This document shows, in pieces, positions 1-16,168 of a stretch of DNA of 16,168 nt. Position 1 is the first letter of the stretch, and the number at the start of each line of letters is the position of its first letter. Position numbers and translations under genes: made by a program. This DNA comes from Desulfobacterales bacterium (GTDB lineage: Bacteria; Desulfobacterota; Desulfobacteria; Desulfobacterales; Desulfobacteraceae). Under the pieces are notes generated by a model. The model was given only the letters and a program-made list of their open reading frames with translations, did not search any database and was not told the DNA's origin. The stretch is taken from positions 1 through 16,168 of the forward strand of contig JAKSBB010000431.1 of NCBI GenBank assembly GCA_022361315.1, read 5' to 3'.

Positions 1-929
1 GTCTGGGTCATGGATACCAGGGCCTGGGAAACAGGGTGCTTGGTCTGGGCTGCGGCTGCCGCGATGGGGGCGGAACCGAGGCCGGATTCGTTGGAAAAAA
101 CACCCCTGGCAACACCCATCCGGATGGCCATCATAACGCCGGCGCCGGCAAAACCGCCGGTGGCGGCAGTGGGGGTGAAGGCCTGTTCAACGATGAAGGC
201 CAGTGCGCCGGGAACGCCGCTGATGTTCATCAGGATAATGATCAATGCGCCGGCCATGTAAAATACGATCATGATGGGAACAAGAACGCCGGTAACCTTA
301 CCGATTTTCTTGATACCGCCGAGAACAACAAAACCGGTGAATACCATAAGCAGGAGGCCGGTAACGAATGTGGGGACCTTGAAGGTGGCTTCCACGGCAT
401 CAGCCACAGAGTTGGACTGGACCATGTTACCGATACCAAAAGCGGCGATGGCTGCGAATACGGCAAATACACTACCCAGCCAAGGCATGTTGAGGCCTTT
501 GGAGATGTAGTACATGGGGCCGCCGCTCATTTCGCCGTTTTCATCGGTGACTCTGTATTTAACGGCCAGGACGGCTTCGGCATATTTGGTGGCCATGCCC
601 ACAAGACCGGTAATCCACATCCAGAAAAGAGCGCCCGGGCCACCTGCGGCAATGGCCGTGGCCACACCGGCGATGTTACCCGTACCGACGGTTGCGGAGA
701 GTGCCGTCATCAGTGCCTGGAAATGCGAAATATCACCGGGTTCGTCGGAATCTTCCTTTCTTTTGATCAGGGCCAGGTAGAGGGAGTGGTATAGCTGGGT
801 GAACTGGATGCCTCTCAGGGCAAAGGTCAGCCAGAAACCGGTACCTACCAAAAGAATCAACATGGGGGGGCCCCAGGCGAATGCACCGACTTTACCGATT
901 AATGTTTCAAACGCAGTTAAAAATTCCAT
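1..929 (-). CDS. Sodium:alanine/glycine symporter (AGCS family), N-terminal part, cut by window edge
   Basis: This gene encodes an inner-membrane secondary transporter that imports alanine or glycine with sodium. The reverse strand gives an open frame of 309 codons running off the left edge, so the C-terminus is missing; full AGCS proteins are usually about 450-550 residues. The protein starts [17 protein letters not shown]. It carries the family signature around residues 78-100 ([20 protein letters not shown]), followed by the conserved [17 protein letters not shown] stretch and [11 protein letters not shown]. Many hydrophobic membrane segments are present, as is the later [11 protein letters not shown] motif near the cut end. 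The ATG at 929-927 is preceded by a good AAAGGAG ribosome site. It is divergent from the lytic transglycosylase gene, with 378 bp between them. The family call is secure; the exact substrate (alanine versus glycine) cannot be read from the sequence. Confidence 0.93.
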
Positions 930-2907: not shown

Positions 2908-5262
2908 ATGAACAAGATATTGAATTTGCCTTCTGAAACCGAGATCCGGGATGTGCTTCATCTGGACGAAGTGAAATTACCCAGCTTCCCGCAGGCGGCG
3001 GCGAAACTTCTTGAGACCGCCAGGGATGAAAGTACCTCTATGGAAGAATTATCCGCCATTATTGAGACAGACCCCGGTCTTTCCGCCCAGGTGCTTAAAA
3101 TTGTCAATTCCGCCACTTACAATGTCGGCCGGCGGGTGACTTCCCTGCAGGATGCCGTTGTCATGCTGGGGCTCGATGAAATTAAGAAGCAGGCTTACGG
3201 TATTGCCATTTTCAAAGGACTGTTTAAAGAAGATAAGGGAAACGGGTTTGACCGGCTCCTTTTCTGGCGTCACAGTCTGGCCGTGGCCGTATTAAGCATG
3301 GAGATTGCAAAAAAAATGGGTTACATCAACCCGGAGGAAGCCTATATCGCCGGACTCCTTCACGATGTGGGAAAGGTATTTCTGGATCTTCGGGGCAAAA
3401 AAGACTACGGAGATTTCATCCGTGCCCTGTCCACGTCCACCGACCTTGTGATTGAAAAGGAAAGGGCCAGCCTCGGTCTTGGCCATGATGACATCGGTGC
3501 TTATTTCTGTAACCGGTGGGAACTGCCCCGGCAATTGGCTGCCGCAGTAAAATACCATCATCAGTCCTTTGCCCATCTGGACATCCCGGCTGAACATAAA
3601 TGCCTGATTGCCATTGTCTCGCTGTCGGATTTCATCTGCTGGACCCAGGGGATCGGATCCTATGATTTTATCCGTCCCCCCGTGCTGCCGCCGGAGGTGG
3701 AGGGTGTCATCGATCTGGAAAAGATTAACATCATCAAATGTATCACGGAGATGAACCGGGAGGTGGACCGGATCTCTGCCTTTTATCGATTTGTATTTCC
3801 TTCGGATACCCAATTACAGGAAAATCTGTTGTGGGCAAATCTGAAGTTGTCACGGCTGAATACGCAGTACTATTACCAGGATGAACCCCTCAACACGGAA
3901 AATGCGCCGACGCCGGACCGGTACCTTCACACGGAGTCGGTATTCAGCAAAGCCCTGGCAAAGGCAAAGAGCGTTAAAGAGGTATTGGATATCCTGATGT
4001 ACCAGATCGGCCGGATATTTAAACCCCGGAACTGGTCTATCCTGTTAAAGGATCCTAAAACGGAGGAACTCGTGTTTTCCGTGGTGGTGGGCGCCAACAA
4101 GGATAAGCTCAAGGGAATGAGGCTGCCCAAGGGAGAGGGCGTTGCCGGATACATAGCCAAAACCGGTACGCCGCTGGTGGTGGCGGATGTGTCGGCGGAC
4201 GAACGGTTCAGTAAGCGGGTGGACCGGGTGACCGGTTTCAAAACCCGGTCCATCATCGGTACACCTTTGAAAACCGGCAAAAAGGTATTTGGGGTGATTC
4301 AGCTCATCAACAGGGATATCGAGGAACATTTTGATACCAAAGATATGGATCTGCTCTCATCCATCTCCGAATATGCGGCCATTGCCATTGAGCGCTCCTA
4401 TTACACCCAGGCCCTGACCAATCTGGCCACAAAGGATGTGCCCACCGGCCTCAAAAACCGCTGGAGCTTTGAACGTGCCGTGGGAAACGCCTCTGAATTC
4501 AAAGTACAGTACGGCAGTGTTTTTTCCATGCTGATCGTCACCGTGGACGGCCTTGAGAATCTGCTGATGGCGGAAGGACAGGCCGTATACGATAATGCCC
4601 TTAAGGAAATAGTACGGGTGATGAATGCCAAAAAGCGGCGGGATGACACCCTCTATCGGTATGGGGAAAATATTTTTCTGATGCTCCTGCCCCTGACCTA
4701 TTCGGATGGCTCAGAAAAATTGAAACGCCGTATTGAAGACGGGATACGTCTTTCCGTGTCCAAAGAACAGCTGCCGGAGTTGGCTGTAACCATTGCGGAT
4801 CACACCCTGAGCAGCAAGGAGGTCAGGACATTTAAAACCCTGGTTGAAGCTGCCTTGTCGGAAACAAAGAAAGTGACCCGGGAAGACCGCGTTGCTGCCA
4901 TCGAAGAAAATCTCCAGCCCCTTGTGGAAGAGGAGATGAACAAGGCTGCGGAAGAACGACGTGGCAGCAAATTCGGCAAAGTGGTTTCCCTCAGGGGGCA
5001 TTACCTCCATCCTACAATCGGTGCATCCGTTTATATCTCGGTCAAAGAAATCTCCCTGACCAAAATCGCCTTTACCATCCCCAAAAAGTCCGCCATCAAA
5101 GTGAACGATTTTCTGGATATCCAGTTTGTTCTGGATGATCTGAAACGATCTGTGATCAAGCGGCAGATCATTGTCAAGGAAGTGGAGGGGGATTATGTTC
5201 TGGCCGATTTCTACAACCCGCCGCCCTATGCCAAGAACTTGGGGTTTTATCTTATCAGTTAA
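2908..5262 (+). CDS. HDOD-GAF-degenerate GGDEF-PilZ-like signalling protein
   Basis: This is a soluble 784-residue multidomain regulator. Residues about 20-220 form an HDOD domain: LPSFPQAAAKLLE opening, then DPGLSAQVLKIVNSA, and LLHDVGKVFLDL with H152/D153. HDOD domains are HD-fold modules of signalling proteins that usually have no proven hydrolase activity. Residues about 340-495 form a GAF domain (GEGVAGYIAKTGTPLVVADVSADERF, then GTPLKTGKKVFGVIQLIN). Residues about 500-650 resemble a diguanylate cyclase (LATKDVPTGLKNRWSFERAV), but the GGDEF signature is GENIF at 586-590, so it should not make c-di-GMP. The tail (about 683-784) looks PilZ-like but lacks a clear RxxxR and (D/N)xSxxG, so c-di-GMP binding is doubtful. 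The domain order suggests a hub protein linked to motility or c-di-GMP signalling; this is inference. The start codon has only a weak ribosome site. Confidence 0.9.
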   Translation: MNKILNLPSETEIRDVLHLDEVKLPSFPQAAAKLLETARDESTSMEELSAIIETDPGLSAQVLKIVNSATYNVGRRVTSLQDAVVMLGLDEIKKQAYGIAIFKGLFKEDKGNGFDRLLFWRHSLAVAVLSMEIAKKMGYINPEEAYIAGLLHDVGKVFLDLRGKKDYGDFIRALSTSTDLVIEKERASLGLGHDDIGAYFCNRWELPRQLAAAVKYHHQSFAHLDIPAEHKCLIAIVSLSDFICWTQGIGSYDFIRPPVLPPEVEGVIDLEKINIIKCITEMNREVDRISAFYRFVFPSDTQLQENLLWANLKLSRLNTQYYYQDEPLNTENAPTPDRYLHTESVFSKALAKAKSVKEVLDILMYQIGRIFKPRNWSILLKDPKTEELVFSVVVGANKDKLKGMRLPKGEGVAGYIAKTGTPLVVADVSADERFSKRVDRVTGFKTRSIIGTPLKTGKKVFGVIQLINRDIEEHFDTKDMDLLSSISEYAAIAIERSYYTQALTNLATKDVPTGLKNRWSFERAVGNASEFKVQYGSVFSMLIVTVDGLENLLMAEGQAVYDNALKEIVRVMNAKKRRDDTLYRYGENIFLMLLPLTYSDGSEKLKRRIEDGIRLSVSKEQLPELAVTIADHTLSSKEVRTFKTLVEAALSETKKVTREDRVAAIEENLQPLVEEEMNKAAEERRGSKFGKVVSLRGHYLHPTIGASVYISVKEISLTKIAFTIPKKSAIKVNDFLDIQFVLDDLKRSVIKRQIIVKEVEGDYVLADFYNPPPYAKNLGFYLIS

Positions 5263-5612: not shown

Positions 5613-6581
5613 ATGCCGAAACAACTAAAACGAGCACTCATGCAGCCCATGAAAACCAATTGGCCTAAGATCCTTAAAAAAGGTCACAAAAATAAAGGGA
5701 ATACATGCTCGGGTTGCTGTGTGGAAAAACTGATTGAAGAGGGCGGCAAAGTGGAAAATGCATTTAAGGCATTGTTCGCTCACTTTGTGAAAAATTCCAA
5801 ATGCGATAATGGCGAGTATGAACTCTGGGGCAAGGATGATGAAAATGAGAATAAACATTATAATCAGAACAATCAATTGATCATGATCAGCCGAATGCGT
5901 AAGGTCACAGGTCCGGCCAAGAAGCTGAAAGGGGCCGAACGCATTGAGCAGAAGTGCAACACCAAATATAAGTACAGAATATCACAGACCCACGAGGTGC
6001 CCACCCGGTATATCAATGATGTGGTACGGGGAACCATGACCTTTAAAAACTGCACGGATATGCTGGCGGCGCTCAACTTCGTCCATAACAATGAGAATAA
6101 GCCCATCAACATCTCCACCAGTAACGTGATCAAATATAAAGTCGTCAGGATCAAGCAAATCTATATGCCCCGTAGTGAACTTCTTTACGGGGACGTCAAG
6201 CTGAATATCCAGCTCACTGCCGAAGGGTACAGACACAATTGTGAACTCCAGTTGAACCACCTGGATATGATCAAAGCAAAGGGCACCAAAGAGGGGCATG
6301 GGGCATATGAGACCTGGCGGAACCTGGATGATGAATGCTGGGCAAAGTATCACAAAGAGCTCCCCACATCGGTGGCTGAGATGCCCAGCGAATTTCAGGG
6401 TAAGGCGCAAAAGGCCATTCATGCCTCACACCAGGCATATCATAAGGCGGATATGGCCATTCATAACGATCCAAAGTTTCAGGCCGTATTGAACAAAGTC
6501 GATTCCTGGAGCACCGATATTAAATCAAAAATAGCCACCAACGCCATCATCCCCTATGACAAGCCACCTAAAGTGTCCTAG
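5613..6581 (+). CDS. Putative RelA/SpoT-fold nucleotidyltransferase-like protein, paralog 1
   Basis: This 322-residue protein has no signal peptide or membrane segment. I do not recognise a named family over its full length. The central part reads like a divergent RelA/SpoT synthetase domain. It has RIEQKxxxKY (R110, K114, K118) like the ATP-binding R.K...K motif, and RYINDVVRGT with Asp136 like the metal-binding Asp. VVRIKQIY leads to LYGDVKLNI, with Tyr192 at the place of the guanine-stacking Tyr. CELQLNHLDM has Glu211 like the catalytic Glu of EIQIRT, and GHGAYETWR matches the closing His/aromatic motif. No HD hydrolase, TGS or ACT domain is present. The N-terminus has KRALMQP, then GHKNKGNTCSGCC (C32, C35, C36). 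If the reading is right it would transfer pyrophosphate to a nucleotide or other acceptor. It has a good GAGGGGG ribosome site and a hairpin 30 nt after the stop. It is lower in GC than its neighbours, suggesting transfer. Confidence 0.6.
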   Translation: MPKQLKRALMQPMKTNWPKILKKGHKNKGNTCSGCCVEKLIEEGGKVENAFKALFAHFVKNSKCDNGEYELWGKDDENENKHYNQNNQLIMISRMRKVTGPAKKLKGAERIEQKCNTKYKYRISQTHEVPTRYINDVVRGTMTFKNCTDMLAALNFVHNNENKPINISTSNVIKYKVVRIKQIYMPRSELLYGDVKLNIQLTAEGYRHNCELQLNHLDMIKAKGTKEGHGAYETWRNLDDECWAKYHKELPTSVAEMPSEFQGKAQKAIHASHQAYHKADMAIHNDPKFQAVLNKVDSWSTDIKSKIATNAIIPYDKPPKVS

Positions 6582-6612
6582 CCGGGATTTCATCTTTTCA
6601 TAAATAAAATGT

Positions 6613-6646
6613 AAACGGCCCGTTCCTTTTCAGGAACGGGCCGTTT
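6613..6646 (+). terminator. Strong 14-bp hairpin terminator after paralog 1
   Basis: AAACGGCCCGTTCC (6613-6626) pairs perfectly with GGAACGGGCCGTTT (6633-6646) around a TTTTCA loop. The following T-run on the plus strand is short, but the stem is the strongest hairpin in the window and begins about 30 nt after the stop codon. It isolates paralog 1 from paralog 2. Confidence 0.8.
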
Positions 6647-6964
6647 GCGTTAATCCTCGGGTGAAAAAAGAACGGCCCCTTTTCTGGCGGTGTGCGTATG
6701 ATGTCTGTCACTTTAGTTGGCGCTTGGTTTTGAGGTCTGGTGTGATCTGCCAAATATGTTGCGGGTCATGACTGTGAAAGCAGTAGATAAGGGATGGATA
6801 AACGTAGATATGCCAGGGATTGTGAAGGAAATGTGTGGTTTTTCATGACCAAGGGCGCGTCGGCATGCAACCTGCTATGAGCCTGCTATGAGGTATAGGT
6901 ACGAAGAGAATGATGAAGAAAAAAATAATAGAACAGATAGAAACAATAACACCGAGGAGGAAGC
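6647..6964. promoter_or_regulatory. Leader/intergenic region before the second RelA/SpoT-like paralog
   Basis: This stretch holds no gene. It contains the second copy of the shared leader element (6820-6892) and an exact 11-nt tandem repeat (6871-6892). The purine-rich stretch before the ATG ends in a strong GAGGAGGAAGC ribosome site. No convincing -35/-10 pair was found, although TATAGGT at 6894-6900 could be a -10. Confidence 0.4.
6871..6892 (+). repeat. Exact 11-nt tandem repeat CCTGCTATGAG x2
   Basis: CCTGCTATGAG occurs at 6871-6881 and is repeated without a gap at 6882-6892. The 11-nt period is close to one helical turn, so a regulator could bind both copies on the same DNA face. The related sequence CTGCTCTGAGG occurs upstream of paralog 1 (5511-5521). 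Confidence 0.75.
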
Positions 6965-7918
6965 ATGAAACGCGCACTGATTCAACCCAAGAACAAGCCG
7001 TATAAAAGGAACGTCAATACCGGTCACAAAGATAGAAAATGTAATGGTTGTGCTGTTGAAGACCTTATCGCAGACGCCGGGCGGGTAGATAGTGAATTTG
7101 AGGAGTTGTTCAACTATTTTGTCTCACACACAAAAGCGGATACCGGGATTTATAAATTGTGGTTCAAGCCCAACCAAGGTAAGGATGCAAGTGGAAATAA
7201 GATCTACTATGAAACACCCTACGGCAGAATTCTTTTGGACGTCGGGGATAAGCCCGTCACCTCTTATGGCCGTCTGAAAGGGGCCCCCCGAATCGAGCAA
7301 AAGTGCTTCACGAAATACAGAGAGCAGTCATCTGCAACCGGTATCGTTGCTGTAAGGTATGTCAATGATGTGGCCCGGGGGACGATTTGTTATAAGAACT
7401 GCCTGGGGATGATCGGTGCTTTGGGTGAGATTACGAAATGGGATGGAATGAAACCACCGGGAACAAAAATAAGAAAGTATCAGGTGGTCAGAATCAAACA
7501 GATTTATGAACCCAAGAGCCCGCTTTTGTATGGTGATGTGAAGATGAATATTCAGGTTACCACCAGTACCGGTATAAAACACAATTGCGAACTGCAACTG
7601 AACCATCTGGATATGATCAAAGCCAAAGGCACCAAGGACGGACACGGGGCTTATGAGGCCTGGCGGAATATGGATGACGACCATTGGCAGAAAGAAGGTA
7701 AGGAACTGCCGCCAAAGATTGCCAATATGAAAGAAGATTATCGGGCAAAGGCATTAAAAATCGTTCACAAGTCCCAGAGTGCTTACAACACCTCTGCTGC
7801 AGCACTTTCAAGGGATCCGAATTATCAGAAGCTGTTGAATATGGTAAGAAGCTGGGGGGATCAGATTAAATCAGACGAAGGCCTGATGAACGCCAATTAC
7901 GATAATCCTCCAAATTAG
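6965..7918 (+). CDS. Putative RelA/SpoT-fold nucleotidyltransferase-like protein, paralog 2
   Basis: This 317-residue protein is homologous to the upstream gene over its full length, with roughly half the residues identical by eye. It is strongest from the RxxxK motif to GHGAY. Candidate active-site residues are all kept: R109 and K113 (RIEQKCFTKY), Asp135 (RYVNDVARGT), Tyr189 and Asp191 (LLYGDVKMNI), Glu209 (HNCELQLNHLDM) and His227 (GHGAYEAWR). The N-terminal KRALIQP and GHKDRKCNGC (C26, C29) are kept too, so the CxGC motif is likely functional. The loop between residues about 65 and 105 and the last 60 residues diverge most. No antitoxin-like small gene is adjacent. It has its own leader and terminator, so the pair is probably not one operon. 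Alarmone synthesis, nucleotide or tRNA modification, or an exported effector role are all possible; none is shown by the sequence. Confidence 0.6.
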   Translation: MKRALIQPKNKPYKRNVNTGHKDRKCNGCAVEDLIADAGRVDSEFEELFNYFVSHTKADTGIYKLWFKPNQGKDASGNKIYYETPYGRILLDVGDKPVTSYGRLKGAPRIEQKCFTKYREQSSATGIVAVRYVNDVARGTICYKNCLGMIGALGEITKWDGMKPPGTKIRKYQVVRIKQIYEPKSPLLYGDVKMNIQVTTSTGIKHNCELQLNHLDMIKAKGTKDGHGAYEAWRNMDDDHWQKEGKELPPKIANMKEDYRAKALKIVHKSQSAYNTSAAALSRDPNYQKLLNMVRSWGDQIKSDEGLMNANYDNPPN

Positions 7919-8307: not shown

Positions 8308-8754
8308 ATGCGAATGATTACCCAAATTCGCTATGGCATAAGAGTTCTATTGGATCTGGCAATGCACCAGAGTGACGGCGTCGTTCAGATGAACGACATT
8401 GCGGACCGGCAGAATATTTCACGGAAATATCTTGAACAGATCATTCAACCCCTGAAAAAAGCGGGCTTTGTCAACAGCAAACGGGGACGAAGCGGGGGGC
8501 ACATCCTTGCCCTTCCGCCGGAAGTCATTTCCCTGGCTGAAATTGTCCGGGTATTCGAGCCTGAAGACTCGGATGACGGCATTCCGGGCGGGGTGGGGTA
8601 CCCCGGTTATCAGGACGCCCTGATCCGGGAGGCATGGACAGATGCCAAAAAGGCGTTTTACGGACGTCTCAGCCAGGTCTCCCTGGCAGACCTCTCCATC
8701 GACACCACCAGGATGCTCTGGAGCGATTCCAACCTCCTGGTTTTCTGCGACTAG
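8308..8754 (+). CDS. Rrf2-family transcriptional regulator, SQR-linked, without Fe-S cysteines
   Basis: This 148-residue dimeric winged-helix regulator starts MRMITQIRYGIRVLLDLAMH. It shows the recognition-helix segment QNISRKYLEQIIQPL (35-49), the wing SKRGRSGGH (57-65) and the EAW.DAKKAF dimer helix typical of Rrf2. IscR and NsrR carry three cysteines near residues 92-105; here that loop (EPEDSDDGIPGGVGYPGYQ) has no Cys at all. The only Cys is residue 147, the second to last. It is 51 nt upstream of the SQR gene and probably controls that operon and itself through the ATACC-type dyad at 8255-8269. A very similar protein is encoded at 14980-15429. The signal is unknown; a thiol or persulfide cue through Cys147 is an inference. 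Confidence 0.9.
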   Translation: MRMITQIRYGIRVLLDLAMHQSDGVVQMNDIADRQNISRKYLEQIIQPLKKAGFVNSKRGRSGGHILALPPEVISLAEIVRVFEPEDSDDGIPGGVGYPGYQDALIREAWTDAKKAFYGRLSQVSLADLSIDTTRMLWSDSNLLVFCD

Positions 8755-8805
8755 GTTATGGACGTATTCCATATTGTTTTAATATTTAACTTTTAGGAGT
8801 AAATC

Positions 8806-10053
8806 ATGAAGAAAATTTTGATCTTAGGATCAGGCGCCGGAGGCACCATGTGCGCAGCCAAGCTGCGCAGAGAACTGGGTTCGGACTGGAAAATCACCAT
8901 CGTTGACAACGATGAGATGCACCATTACCAGCCGGGATGGCTATTCATCCCCTTTGGTATCTACACGGCCGAAGACTGCCAGAAACCCAAACGGGATTTT
9001 ATCCCCCAGGGGGTGGACTTTGTACTTGACGAGGTCGTGGGTGTGAATACCGAGGCACAGAAGGTCAGCTGTAAAAAAGGCGAGTATGACTATGACTGGC
9101 TGATCATTGCCACGGGCTGCAACATGGTGCCCCAGGAAATCGAGGGTCTTGAAAACTGGAAAGCCGACGGCAAAGCCAACGAGCACAGTTTTTTCACCCT
9201 GGAAAGTGCCGTGGCCCTGCACAAGAAAATGAAACATTTTGAAAAGGGCCGCCTGGTATTTAATATCGCCGAGATGCCCCATAAATGTCCTGTAGTTCCC
9301 ATGGAGTTCATCTTTATGGCGGACTGGTTTTATGCCAAGGCCGGCTGCCGGGATAATATCGAGATCGAACTCGTTACCCCGAACACCGGTATTTTTACCA
9401 AGCCAATCGCCACCAAGGTCATGACGGCCACTGCCGAGGAAAAAGATATCCTGGTGACCCCGAACTACAGTATCGACAGCGTGAACACCGAGGAAAAATA
9501 CATCGAATCGGTTACCGGTGACCGTGTTGATTATGATCTGCTGGTCTCCACCATGCCCAACCTGGGCCCGGACTATGTGGAAGATTCGGGCCTGGGGGAC
9601 GGTATGGGATATGTCCTGACCGACCACCATACCCTGAAAGCGGAAAACCACGACAATATCTACGTGGTGGGGGACGCCACCAACGTGCCCACATCTAAAG
9701 CCGGATCCGTTGCCCATTACGAAGCGGATATCGTTGTGGAAAATATGATCCGCGAGATCGAAGGCCGGGAACCCGAACCCGCATTTGACGGTCACTCCAC
9801 CTGTTTTATCGTCTCCGGTTATGACAAGGCCTTCCTTTTTGACTTTAACTACAAGACCGAACCGCTCCCCGGCAAGTTCCCGTTCCCGGGTATCGGCCCT
9901 TTTGATCTCATCGGCGAAAGCAGCATGAACTACTGGGGAAAAATGATGTTTAAATGGGTATACTGGAATATGCTGCTCACCGGCAAGGAAATGCCCCTGG
10001 AACCCCAGATGGCCATGGCCGGAAAGTACTGGCCCAAAGTCGGTACGGAATAA
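8806..10053 (+). CDS. sqr: Sulfide:quinone oxidoreductase-like flavoprotein, copy 1
   Basis: This 415-residue FAD enzyme is predicted to oxidise sulfide to sulfur or polysulfide and pass electrons to the membrane quinone. Residues 3-35 are the Rossmann FAD-binding segment (LILGSGAGGTMCAAKL, GxGxxG at 8-13, acidic D34 closing it). Further conserved parts are HHYQPGWLFIPFG (39-51), DWLIIATGC (97-105) and VVGDATNVPTSKAGSVAHYEA (287-307). The active-site cysteines are Cys161 in PHKCPVVPMEF and Cys333 in STCFIVSGY. The third Cys of classic type I SQR (in a QSxCT segment) is replaced: HSFFTLESA, with Cys105 as another Cys nearby in sequence. The C-terminal part (about 372-405, FDLIGESSMNYWGKMMFKWVYWNML) is amphipathic and likely holds the enzyme to the membrane. 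A TAGGAG ribosome site precedes the ATG. It is followed by a DUF1641 gene whose ribosome site overlaps the stop codon. Confidence 0.88.
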   Translation: MKKILILGSGAGGTMCAAKLRRELGSDWKITIVDNDEMHHYQPGWLFIPFGIYTAEDCQKPKRDFIPQGVDFVLDEVVGVNTEAQKVSCKKGEYDYDWLIIATGCNMVPQEIEGLENWKADGKANEHSFFTLESAVALHKKMKHFEKGRLVFNIAEMPHKCPVVPMEFIFMADWFYAKAGCRDNIEIELVTPNTGIFTKPIATKVMTATAEEKDILVTPNYSIDSVNTEEKYIESVTGDRVDYDLLVSTMPNLGPDYVEDSGLGDGMGYVLTDHHTLKAENHDNIYVVGDATNVPTSKAGSVAHYEADIVVENMIREIEGREPEPAFDGHSTCFIVSGYDKAFLFDFNYKTEPLPGKFPFPGIGPFDLIGESSMNYWGKMMFKWVYWNMLLTGKEMPLEPQMAMAGKYWPKVGTE

Positions 10054-14840: not shown

Positions 14841-14979
14841 TAAATCCCTGTAATTCCAGCATTAGTTTTTTTGTTTAGCTTTCACTTTTTATTTTTTTCT
14901 TCTTGACAAGAATCTTCATAACATTTAATCCATACCAAATTGGTATAGATTAATTTAATATACATTGCAAGGGTTTAAT
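14841..14979. promoter_or_regulatory. Divergent region between the kinase and the second Rrf2 gene
   Basis: This AT-rich region carries the promoter module described for 14875-14966. On the minus strand no convincing kinase promoter could be picked out. Confidence 0.4.
14875..14966 (+). promoter_or_regulatory. Promoter/operator module of the second Rrf2-SQR operon
   Basis: Box TTAGCTTTCACTTTT (14875-14889) is identical to the box at 8198-8212. TTGACA (14903-14908) follows after 13 nt and TATAGATT (14944-14951) after 35 nt. TATACATT follows after another 7 nt. All spacings equal those of the first module, while most spacer bases differ. The dyad ATACCAAATTGGTAT (14932-14946) is nearly perfect here and is the best Rrf2-type operator in the window. 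A second dyad, TTCTTG-A-CAAGAA (14900-14912), overlaps the -35. The -10 would be TAATCC (14926-14931), just before the operator. Confidence 0.75.
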
Positions 14980-15429
14980 ATGCGCTCAATGAAACTCCTC
15001 ACCCAGGTGCGTTACAGTATACGCGTTTTGCTTGATCTGTCCATGAATCAGCGGGAAGGGGTGGTCCGGATTGCAGAGATTGCGTCCCGCCAGAAAATTT
15101 CCATTAAATATCTGGAGCGGATCATCCAGCCCCTCAAGGAAGCCGGGTTTGTCATGAGCAAGCGCGGACGAAACGGTGGGCATACACTGGCCATGCCGCC
15201 GGAAGCCATTTCACTGGCAGACATTGTAAGGATTTTTGAAGAGGATACGGTTGAGGCGGACTTCCAGTGCGGGCTTCCGGGTTACCAGGATGCCTTGATC
15301 CGGGAGGCTTGGCAGGCAGCAAAACAGGCATTTTATCTTCGTTTGGCCCGGATTACCCTGGCGGATCTGTCACTGGATACCACCAGAAAGCTCTGGAGCG
15401 ATTCGGAGATTTTAATTTTTTGCGAGTAA
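14980..15429 (+). CDS. Rrf2-family transcriptional regulator, SQR-linked, copy 2
   Basis: This 149-residue close paralog of the protein at 8308-8754 shares the helix-turn-helix (QKISIKYLERIIQPL), the wing (SKRGRNGGH) and the tail W-S-D-S-x-x-L/I-x-F-C-D/E. It has two cysteines, C97 (DFQCGLPGYQ) and the penultimate C148, but no three-Cys cluster motif. Start ATG 14980 is chosen because AAGGG lies 6 nt before it; a TTG at 14965 would be in frame but has no ribosome site. It ends 47 nt before the second SQR gene. The near-perfect dyad at 14932-14946 supports autoregulation and control of that gene. Confidence 0.9.
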   Translation: MRSMKLLTQVRYSIRVLLDLSMNQREGVVRIAEIASRQKISIKYLERIIQPLKEAGFVMSKRGRNGGHTLAMPPEAISLADIVRIFEEDTVEADFQCGLPGYQDALIREAWQAAKQAFYLRLARITLADLSLDTTRKLWSDSEILIFCE

Positions 15430-15476
15430 CCCCGGGAAAAACTTCCCATAGAAACCAGAAGAATAAGGAGAGTTAA

Positions 15477-16168
15477 ATGAAGAAGATCTTGATTCTTGGA
15501 TCCGGTGCCGGCGGGACGATGTGTGCGGCAAAACTGCGCAGGGAACTGGGCTCGGACTGGAAAATTACCATCATTGACAATGATGAGATGCACCACTACC
15601 AGCCGGGTTGGTTGTTTATTCCCTTCGGCATCTACACGGCCGCCGACTGTCAGAAACCCAAACGGGATTTTATTCCCCAGGGCGTGGATTTTGTGCTGGA
15701 CGATATCGTGGGGGTGGATCCCGGGGCCCGGACGGTTGAGTGCAAAAAAGGAAAGTATGACTACGACTGGCTGATCATCGCCACCGGCTGTCAGATGGTG
15801 CCCAATGAAATTGACGGGCTGGAAAACTGGAAGGCGGACGGCAATGCCAATGAACACAGCTTTTTCACCCTGGAGAGTGCGGTGGCCCTGTACAAGAGAA
15901 TGAAGCATTTCGACAAGGGAAAGATGATCTTCAACATCGCTGAAATGCCCCATAAGTGCCCGGTGGTTCCCATGGAGTTCATCTTCATGGCCGACTGGTT
16001 TTTTGCCAAAAACGGTTGCAGGGACGATATCGAGATCGAATTCGTTACCCCCAATACGGGTATTTTCACCAAACCCATCGCCACCAAGGTCATGAGTGCC
16101 ACGGCCGAGGAAAAGAACATCCTGGTGACCCCGAATTACAGTCTGGATAATGTAAACACGGAAGAAAA
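15477..16168 (+). CDS. sqr: Sulfide:quinone oxidoreductase-like flavoprotein, copy 2, cut by window edge
   Basis: The first 230 codons of a second SQR align without gaps to copy 1 and are identical at most positions. The GxGxxG segment, HHYQPGWLFIPFG, ATGC (C105) and PHKCPVVPMEF (C161) are all kept, and so is the HSFFTLESA replacement of the classic first Cys. Differences are mostly conservative and silent third positions differ widely, so the duplication is not recent. The ATG has an AAGGAG ribosome site 6 nt before it. The second active-site Cys (333 in copy 1) and the membrane-binding tail lie beyond the window. Whether a DUF1641 gene follows here too cannot be seen. Confidence 0.88.
   Translation, partial: MKKILILGSGAGGTMCAAKLRRELGSDWKITIIDNDEMHHYQPGWLFIPFGIYTAADCQKPKRDFIPQGVDFVLDDIVGVDPGARTVECKKGKYDYDWLIIATGCQMVPNEIDGLENWKADGNANEHSFFTLESAVALYKRMKHFDKGKMIFNIAEMPHKCPVVPMEFIFMADWFFAKNGCRDDIEIEFVTPNTGIFTKPIATKVMSATAEEKNILVTPNYSLDNVNTEE

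Follow-up and report, generated by a model that had tools for sequence, protein, structure and literature searches.

Tandem leaderless proteins of a Desulfobacterales bacterium as likely relatives of the alarmone synthetase Tas1/Apk1

Introduction

The makers of (p)ppApp are described, in the available text of PMC12691689, mostly as toxins that are managed through an immunity partner or by export. The closest described systems are Tas1/Apk1, a type VI secretion (p)ppApp synthetase (PDB 6ox6), and the exported alarmone synthetase SaEAS (PDB 8vx3); within the published wider family the acceptor base is A for Apk1, G for VpEAS and both for SaEAS, and the same text, a 2025 mBio paper, mentions seven alarmone synthetase sequences that bear DUF4157. 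This domain is tied to toxins of extracellular contractile injection systems (eCIS) in the accessible parts of two further papers (Geller 2021, PMC8213781; a 2024 classifier paper, PMC11297309). Here we analyse a 16,168-nucleotide stretch of a Desulfobacterales bacterium (contig JAKSBB010000431.1; the whole stretch is called the window), whose host is likely a sulfate reducer judged by its lineage, and which carries two tandem genes for synthetase-like proteins. We consider it probable that both are leaderless relatives of Tas1/Apk1, likely (p)ppApp-type synthetases that drain ATP and most likely serve as a conflict weapon or as a means of stopping the cell itself. A conserved pair with neither recognised immunity nor export raises the question of how the cytosol of a cell would tolerate an ATP-draining enzyme of toxin grade.

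Two paralogues with a Tas1-like active site

Both open reading frames (ORFs) start with ATG directly 3' of a purine-rich stretch, and the following features carry the argument:

5613..6581, + strand: copy 1 (P0011, 322 aa), a Tas1-like alarmone-synthetase (SYNTH) protein by alignments, predicted model and dN/dS
6965..7918, + strand: copy 2 (P0001, 317 aa), a paralogue from a separate subclade by alignments, predicted model and tree
6018..6020, + strand: predicted metal-binding Asp136 of copy 1, in N-D-V-V-R-G-T
7367..7369, + strand: predicted metal-binding Asp135 of copy 2
6186..6188, + strand: predicted acceptor-site Tyr192 of copy 1
7529..7531, + strand: predicted acceptor-site Tyr189 of copy 2
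6243..6245, + strand: predicted catalytic Glu211 of copy 1, in E-L-Q
7589..7591, + strand: predicted catalytic Glu209 of copy 2, in E-L-Q

A preliminary description of this DNA had recognised two full-length paralogues with motifs in an order fitting RelA/SpoT synthetases, and both points held: the copies share 48% identity over their full length (E 9e-100), and the motif residues were located at R110/R109, K114/K113, K118/K117, D136/D135, Y192/Y189 and E211/E209 (copy 1/copy 2), followed by GH-x2-Y-x2-WR. In alignment A5, which comprises 36 rows (34 database proteins, the window proteins included, plus P0026 and P0028 read from their loci), these residues occur in every row except for the W of WR (33/36) and the N before the Asp (34/36); nine catalytic and binding positions, among them the Asp, Tyr and Glu listed above, are invariant. 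The Asp lies in a Tas1-like pattern and the Glu matches Apk1 E382, while the role of the Tyr is predicted from motif order and from FaRel2 Y128.

The surroundings of the metal Asp distinguish the family from Rel proteins. The aligned stretch of Tas1 reads D-x-x-R-x-T, and the family has Asp at D135 and Arg at R138 in 36/36 rows each, with Thr (34/36) or Ser (2/36) at 140. By eye, the eight distinct Rel or small-synthetase segments of the searched genomes (12 RelA_SpoT segments minus two duplicates and two phage-type ones with neither pattern) place Arg at D+5 and lack it at D+3. The residues D90, G93 and R95 given for FaRel2 in the available text of PMC11782079 have D-x4-R spacing and therefore fit the Rel pattern, not the D-x-x-R of the family. 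This spacing speaks against the pair being tRNA-CCA pyrophosphokinases of the FaRel2/CapRel type, with a toxin or antiphage role, as do an identity to CapRel of 9-10% (VIA) and the lack of any recognised antitoxin, whether as a gene or as a fused domain; we regard that reading as very unlikely.

For SaEAS/Apk1 the ATP-binding residues are reported as R124/R330, K154/K353, N169/N370, E182/E382 and Q184 (PMC12691689, available text), which we take to correspond to R138, K178, K193, E209 and Q211. Four of these five are identical in the family by alignment, and K178 and K193 are 15 residues apart, as are K154 and N169 of SaEAS (17 in Apk1). We infer enzyme activity, its donor, main acceptor and consequences: the proteins would use ATP to pyrophosphorylate a purine nucleotide, most likely one with adenine, at its 3'-hydroxyl, and would thereby make (p)ppApp-type alarmones, drain ATP and stop growth. 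A toxin-grade synthetase of this kind would have to be restrained by something besides a recognised adjacent immunity protein.

A link to the RelA/SpoT synthetase superfamily

The predicted models of both copies show the SYNTH nucleotidyltransferase fold, as the preliminary description had anticipated, with SaEAS as the top structural match and a root-mean-square deviation of 2.9 over 170 residues from Tas1/Apk1, whose identity of 23-24% is the highest among the listed synthetases. A sequence link was obtained through a phage-type protein: the family profile, searched across 389 genomes from the order to which the related Desulfobacterales metagenome-assembled genome (MAG) G001 belongs, matched, in addition to the two members already known, two phage-type domains in one genome (G248). 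One lies within a 1474-aa protein that also contains InPase and ddrB-ParB domains (E 4.3e-6), and the other is stop-interrupted (E 3.1e-4). The first of them, the bridging domain (P0025), could be aligned to the family across 181 columns (P 2e-11 in hhalign), all controls (one reversed, 20 shuffled, 6 unrelated) giving P of at least 0.059; as an excised segment it scores above the RelA_SpoT cut-off (30.2 versus 27 bits), and its first PDB match is Tas1 (E 5e-4). The best PDB match of the family profile is likewise Tas1, although weak (E 0.62).

In G248 the InPase-RelA_SpoT-ddrB polyvalent protein (locus L016, 9814-14238) adjoins a methylase and a capsid-like gene, and locus L017 holds the stop-interrupted second domain.

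Neither synthetase had a credible match in Pfam, NCBIfam, PHROGs or PADLOC; a weak match of the C-terminal helices to DUF7944 (E 0.022, below cut-off) was rejected. Single-sequence searches of PDB with the window proteins, and with the relative P0042 alone, gave no match, and a first profile search of PDB returned as its sole match a designed protein (E 0.96), which was set aside.

Family membership and distribution

Three protein-database searches, the third of which was restricted in its scoring to the 7996 candidates with the most words in common, yielded 38 proteins at E <=0.01, the two window proteins included. From these we left out a fragment (P0014), a frameshifted sequence (P0023), a TPR protein (P0041) and the distant P0042, which bears DUF4157 and a synthetase domain that is recognisable by eye but more divergent. 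Besides A5, alignment A3 comprised 23 minus P0014 and P0023, A4 had 10 rows and A6 held 32 of the A5 rows. The rows of A5 form two groups: 19 proteins without a leader (299-333 aa), from Desulfobacterales, Desulfobacteraceae, Desulfobacter and a delta-proteobacterial MAG where the source is named, and 17 proteins of 329-614 aa with an N-terminal leader, from Aureispira where named and, in the case of P0026, from a MAG labelled just 'bacterium'. Precomputed annotation places eCIS_core/DUF4157 in 14/17 leader-bearing proteins; on rescanning, DUF4157 matched 4/4 (P0037, P0039, P0040 and the locus copy of P0021), while P0035, P0036 and P0026 gave no DUF4157 match.

The family is rare and patchily distributed: members occur in 2/86 genomes of the family of the uncultured Desulfobacteraceae MAG G002, in 3/389 of the order of G001 (one being the distant prophage-type match), in 1/317 of the class of G003, and in 2/199 of the family and 2/396 of the order of Aureispira G004, the latter being the same two genomes (the 389-, 199- and 396-genome sets are even draws from larger groups). 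No member was found in plasmid and phage searches, and of 12 pattern stretches in viral contigs none was confirmed by tblastn. This patchiness is unlike that of a core stress gene and bears on the reading that the pair are ordinary small alarmone synthetases, stress regulators of their own cell like RelQ/RelP with no weapon role. A long RelA_SpoT protein is already present in 7/7 genomes searched, part of the family is DUF4157-fused, and both identity and D-x-x-R-x-T point to Tas1, not to RelQ/RelP; we therefore judge own-cell regulation somewhat unlikely, although it is the strongest competitor.

Genomic context and evolution of the pair

Two further features concern the surroundings of the pair:

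2908..5262, + strand: HDOD-GAF-GGDEF gene, adjacent to copy 1 on its 5' side both in the window and in L002, a G002 locus, with no functional link shown (Pfam, locus comparison)
6613..6646, no strand assigned: 15-pair perfect hairpin between the copies, a candidate terminator (hairpin scan)

Copy 1 is under strong purifying selection: against its L002 counterpart it shows 89% protein identity and a dN/dS ratio of 0.069, compared with 0.083 for the HDOD gene, whose protein is 87% identical in the two loci, which makes the host a likely relative of the G002 lineage. Copy 1 follows the HDOD gene directly in both, with 70% identical intergenic DNA. Copy 2 groups with P0002 in another subclade of the tree, so the pair appears to have arisen by an old duplication or by two acquisitions. 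Separate transcription units, as given in the preliminary description, are suggested by the 383-bp gap with its hairpin, for which the scan returned a terminator-like score on no strand but the minus one. Upstream similarity between the copies is weak (best pairwise E 0.02), giving no common promoter. The low GC content noted earlier is real but mild, at 0.460 (copy 1) and 0.455 (copy 2) versus 0.50-0.59 in the ten other window genes.

When the twelve window proteins were compared with loci L001, L002 and L003, matches were limited to the synthetases, the HDOD protein (L002 alone) and the histidine kinase (L001, 24-26% identity), so that these loci revealed no partner gene in common. The HDOD protein is present in 30/78 genomes; comparison with G001 and with seven loci from synthetase-free genomes (L080-L086) returned HDOD only, plus one kinase match in L083, and in G001 synthetase and HDOD lie on different contigs. 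The expected absence of a hydrolase holds for the synthetases themselves, which lack an HD domain, but the upstream neighbour does contain an HD-type domain, one with no match to the Rel hydrolase family. The cyclase motif of this neighbour reads RYGENIF instead of RYGGDEF, which probably leaves its GGDEF domain inactive.

Of ten window proteins submitted to Pfam, the eight besides the synthetases belong to ordinary families (SLT/SBP3, HDOD-GAF-GGDEF, Rrf2, Pyr_redox_2, DUF1641, response regulator, Rrf2 and PAS histidine kinase); an Rfam scan of the window gave no match. An Rrf2 regulator with a Pyr_redox_2 oxidoreductase, sulfide-quinone-reductase-like by eye, occurs twice (8308-10053 and 14965-16168), the second oxidoreductase copy being 87% identical over 230 aa and extending past the window end. 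An open-ended frame at 3-929 (minus strand) resembles a sodium:amino-acid symporter by eye.

Delivery, immunity and a His/Cys segment

Pfam recognised no leader domain, DUF4157 or fused antitoxin domain in either window protein, and the N-terminal hydropathy maxima (15-residue mean, first 50 residues) are 0.35 and 0.19, with no signal-peptide program used; by these sequence features the pair appears to lack a recognised signal peptide or export domain. Inspected by eye, the ORF lists of L001-L003, some of whose ORFs were Pfam-scanned, gave no sign of a delivery machine near the leaderless genes. Neither DUF4157 nor an eCIS tube was found in G003 (MAG gaps possible), and G001 has one Hcp. Aureispira G004 and the near-identical G132 each have three tube-type genes, which in G132 are clustered together with matches to sheath, baseplate-V and CIS_tube, some 2.6 Mb away from the gene of the fusion. 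Delivery by an eCIS is thus plausible for the DUF4157-fused kin and unsupported for the leaderless proteins.

The preliminary description had also seen no neighbouring antitoxin. Between the synthetases and their neighbours HDOD and Rrf2 there is indeed no + strand ORF of at least 60 aa, but the gaps hold ORFs of 30-71 aa, leaving room for a very small partner. A hydrolase antidote was not consistently found either: G001 has a 178-aa HD_4 frame, and in G002 HD_4 occurs only within Rel.

Beside the DUF4157-synthetase fusion, an orphan of 165 aa that belongs to no known family is found at L004 8403-8900 (Aureispira) and L018 10869-11366 (G132), a candidate immunity protein. In MAG G005 (Bacteroidota-like, a guess), protease genes stand beside DUF4157-type effectors (L005 5461-10735 and L020 715-7487): a synthetase gene whose product has an N-terminus of DUF4157 style is preceded at 97 bp by a WD40-caspase gene, and a DUF4157 protein is preceded at about 120 bp by a TPR protein whose end is, by eye, a CHAT-like protease.

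The leaderless proteins carry a distinctive N-terminal segment:

5685..5720, + strand: copy 1 His/Cys segment H25..C32-x2-C35-C36, a candidate metal or redox site (sequence, column counts)
7025..7051, + strand: copy 2 His/Cys segment H21..C26-x2-C29

Among the 19 leaderless rows C29 and C114 are present in 19 each, H21 in 18, C146 in 17 and C26 in 16, versus C146 in one and the others in none of the 17 leader-bearing rows. It looks as if the site was gained or lost together with the leader. In a tree rooted on two distant rows, in which some branches are long, a single leaderless clade is neither shown nor rejected (p-AU 0.147). The segment might bind zinc or sense redox state and thereby restrain the enzyme, which, if true, would make it a built-in switch; the available text of PMC12691689 does not contain the words cysteine, disulfide or zinc. 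An extended scenario, which we consider unlikely, is that a Tas1-type warhead was domesticated in sulfate reducers, losing leader and immunity partner, acquiring a His/Cys zinc or redox switch instead, and acting as a tandem pair that raises a (p)ppApp self-alarm and halts growth under oxygen or metal stress.

Weighing the interpretation

The preliminary proposal of a branch of alarmone synthetases or effectors is supported by the Tas1-like residues, the predicted SYNTH fold and the DUF4157-fused kin. Several observations weigh against it. PF04607 (RelA_SpoT) gave no direct match to either window protein at E up to 1, the whole bridging phage protein scores 24.4 bits, below the cut-off, and its domain has no Arg at D+3. 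The long Rel set showed no significant hhalign similarity (P 0.075 with 6 sequences; 0.056 with 8, small synthetases added), values about equal to the best shuffles of the other template. Among the 50 Foldseek matches listed, Tas1 is absent and one Rel chain appears, at 21% identity over 134 columns, and the copy 1 segment of residues 21-30 is poorly modelled (pLDDT 53). Neither DUF4157 nor an eCIS tube was found in the related Desulfobacterales MAGs G001 and G002 (MAG gaps possible). Because the leader label changes only twice on the tree, the Cys pattern reflects one or two events and is no independent proof; and because members of the published family variously accept A, G or both, (p)ppApp is a best guess only.

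The fifth ATP-site position (Asn370 in Apk1, N169 in SaEAS) is Lys193 in 36/36 rows. Together with the lack of a credible Pfam match, this substitution would suit catalytically dead or retooled nucleotidyltransferase-fold proteins, serving as scaffolds or in another transfer reaction. The nine invariant positions and the selection on copy 1 argue against this, and we rate it the least probable of the alternatives, marginally below the tRNA-CCA reading. We thus favour Tas1/Apk1-related synthetases. The DUF4157-fused synthetases, previously a one-line mention in the available text of PMC12691689, are hereby placed in a defined family with signature residues. That paper was the only one found on DUF4157 alarmone synthetases; no literature was found on ppApp in Desulfobact-, and that on alarmone synthetases in sulfate-reducing bacteria was limited to a Roseobacteraceae biofilm paper (by its listing), in searches outside which most subscription papers and all preprints lay, so that absence from print is not shown.

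Comparison with known systems

The window pair shows neither the adjacent antitoxin gene nor the fused antitoxin domain of toxic small alarmone synthetase (toxSAS) modules. The HD hydrolase, TGS and ACT domains of the long RelA/SpoT homologues (Rel, RelA, SpoT) are absent by Pfam, in agreement with the preliminary description for TGS and ACT. RelQ/RelP and the long Rel/SpoT proteins share the SYNTH fold and the Asp/Tyr/Glu frame with the pair and differ by D-x4-R, and, for the long forms, by domain content and the lack of significant profile similarity. Phage polyvalent RelA_SpoT domains (such as the G248 prophage protein; PMC5512222, available text) have clear homology over the catalytic core, but the G248 protein is a 1474-aa multidomain protein without Arg at D+3. 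Some family members bear DUF4157, as do the seven sequences of the mBio paper. SaEAS shares all ATP-binding positions except one, and, in contrast to exported alarmone synthetases, no signal peptide or export domain was recognised in the window proteins. Tas1/Apk1 differs in its N-terminal delivery domain and adjacent immunity gene, neither of which is recognised here, in having Asn370 where the family has Lys, and in lacking the extra His/Cys segment of the window proteins. It shares with them the predicted fold, K-x3-R-x2-QK, D-x-x-R-x-T, E-[IL]-Q and GH-x2-YE-x-WR, and D-x-x-R-x-T together with the equivalents of K353, E382 and Q384, present in the family by alignment and spacing, marks the pair as Tas1/Apk1-like.
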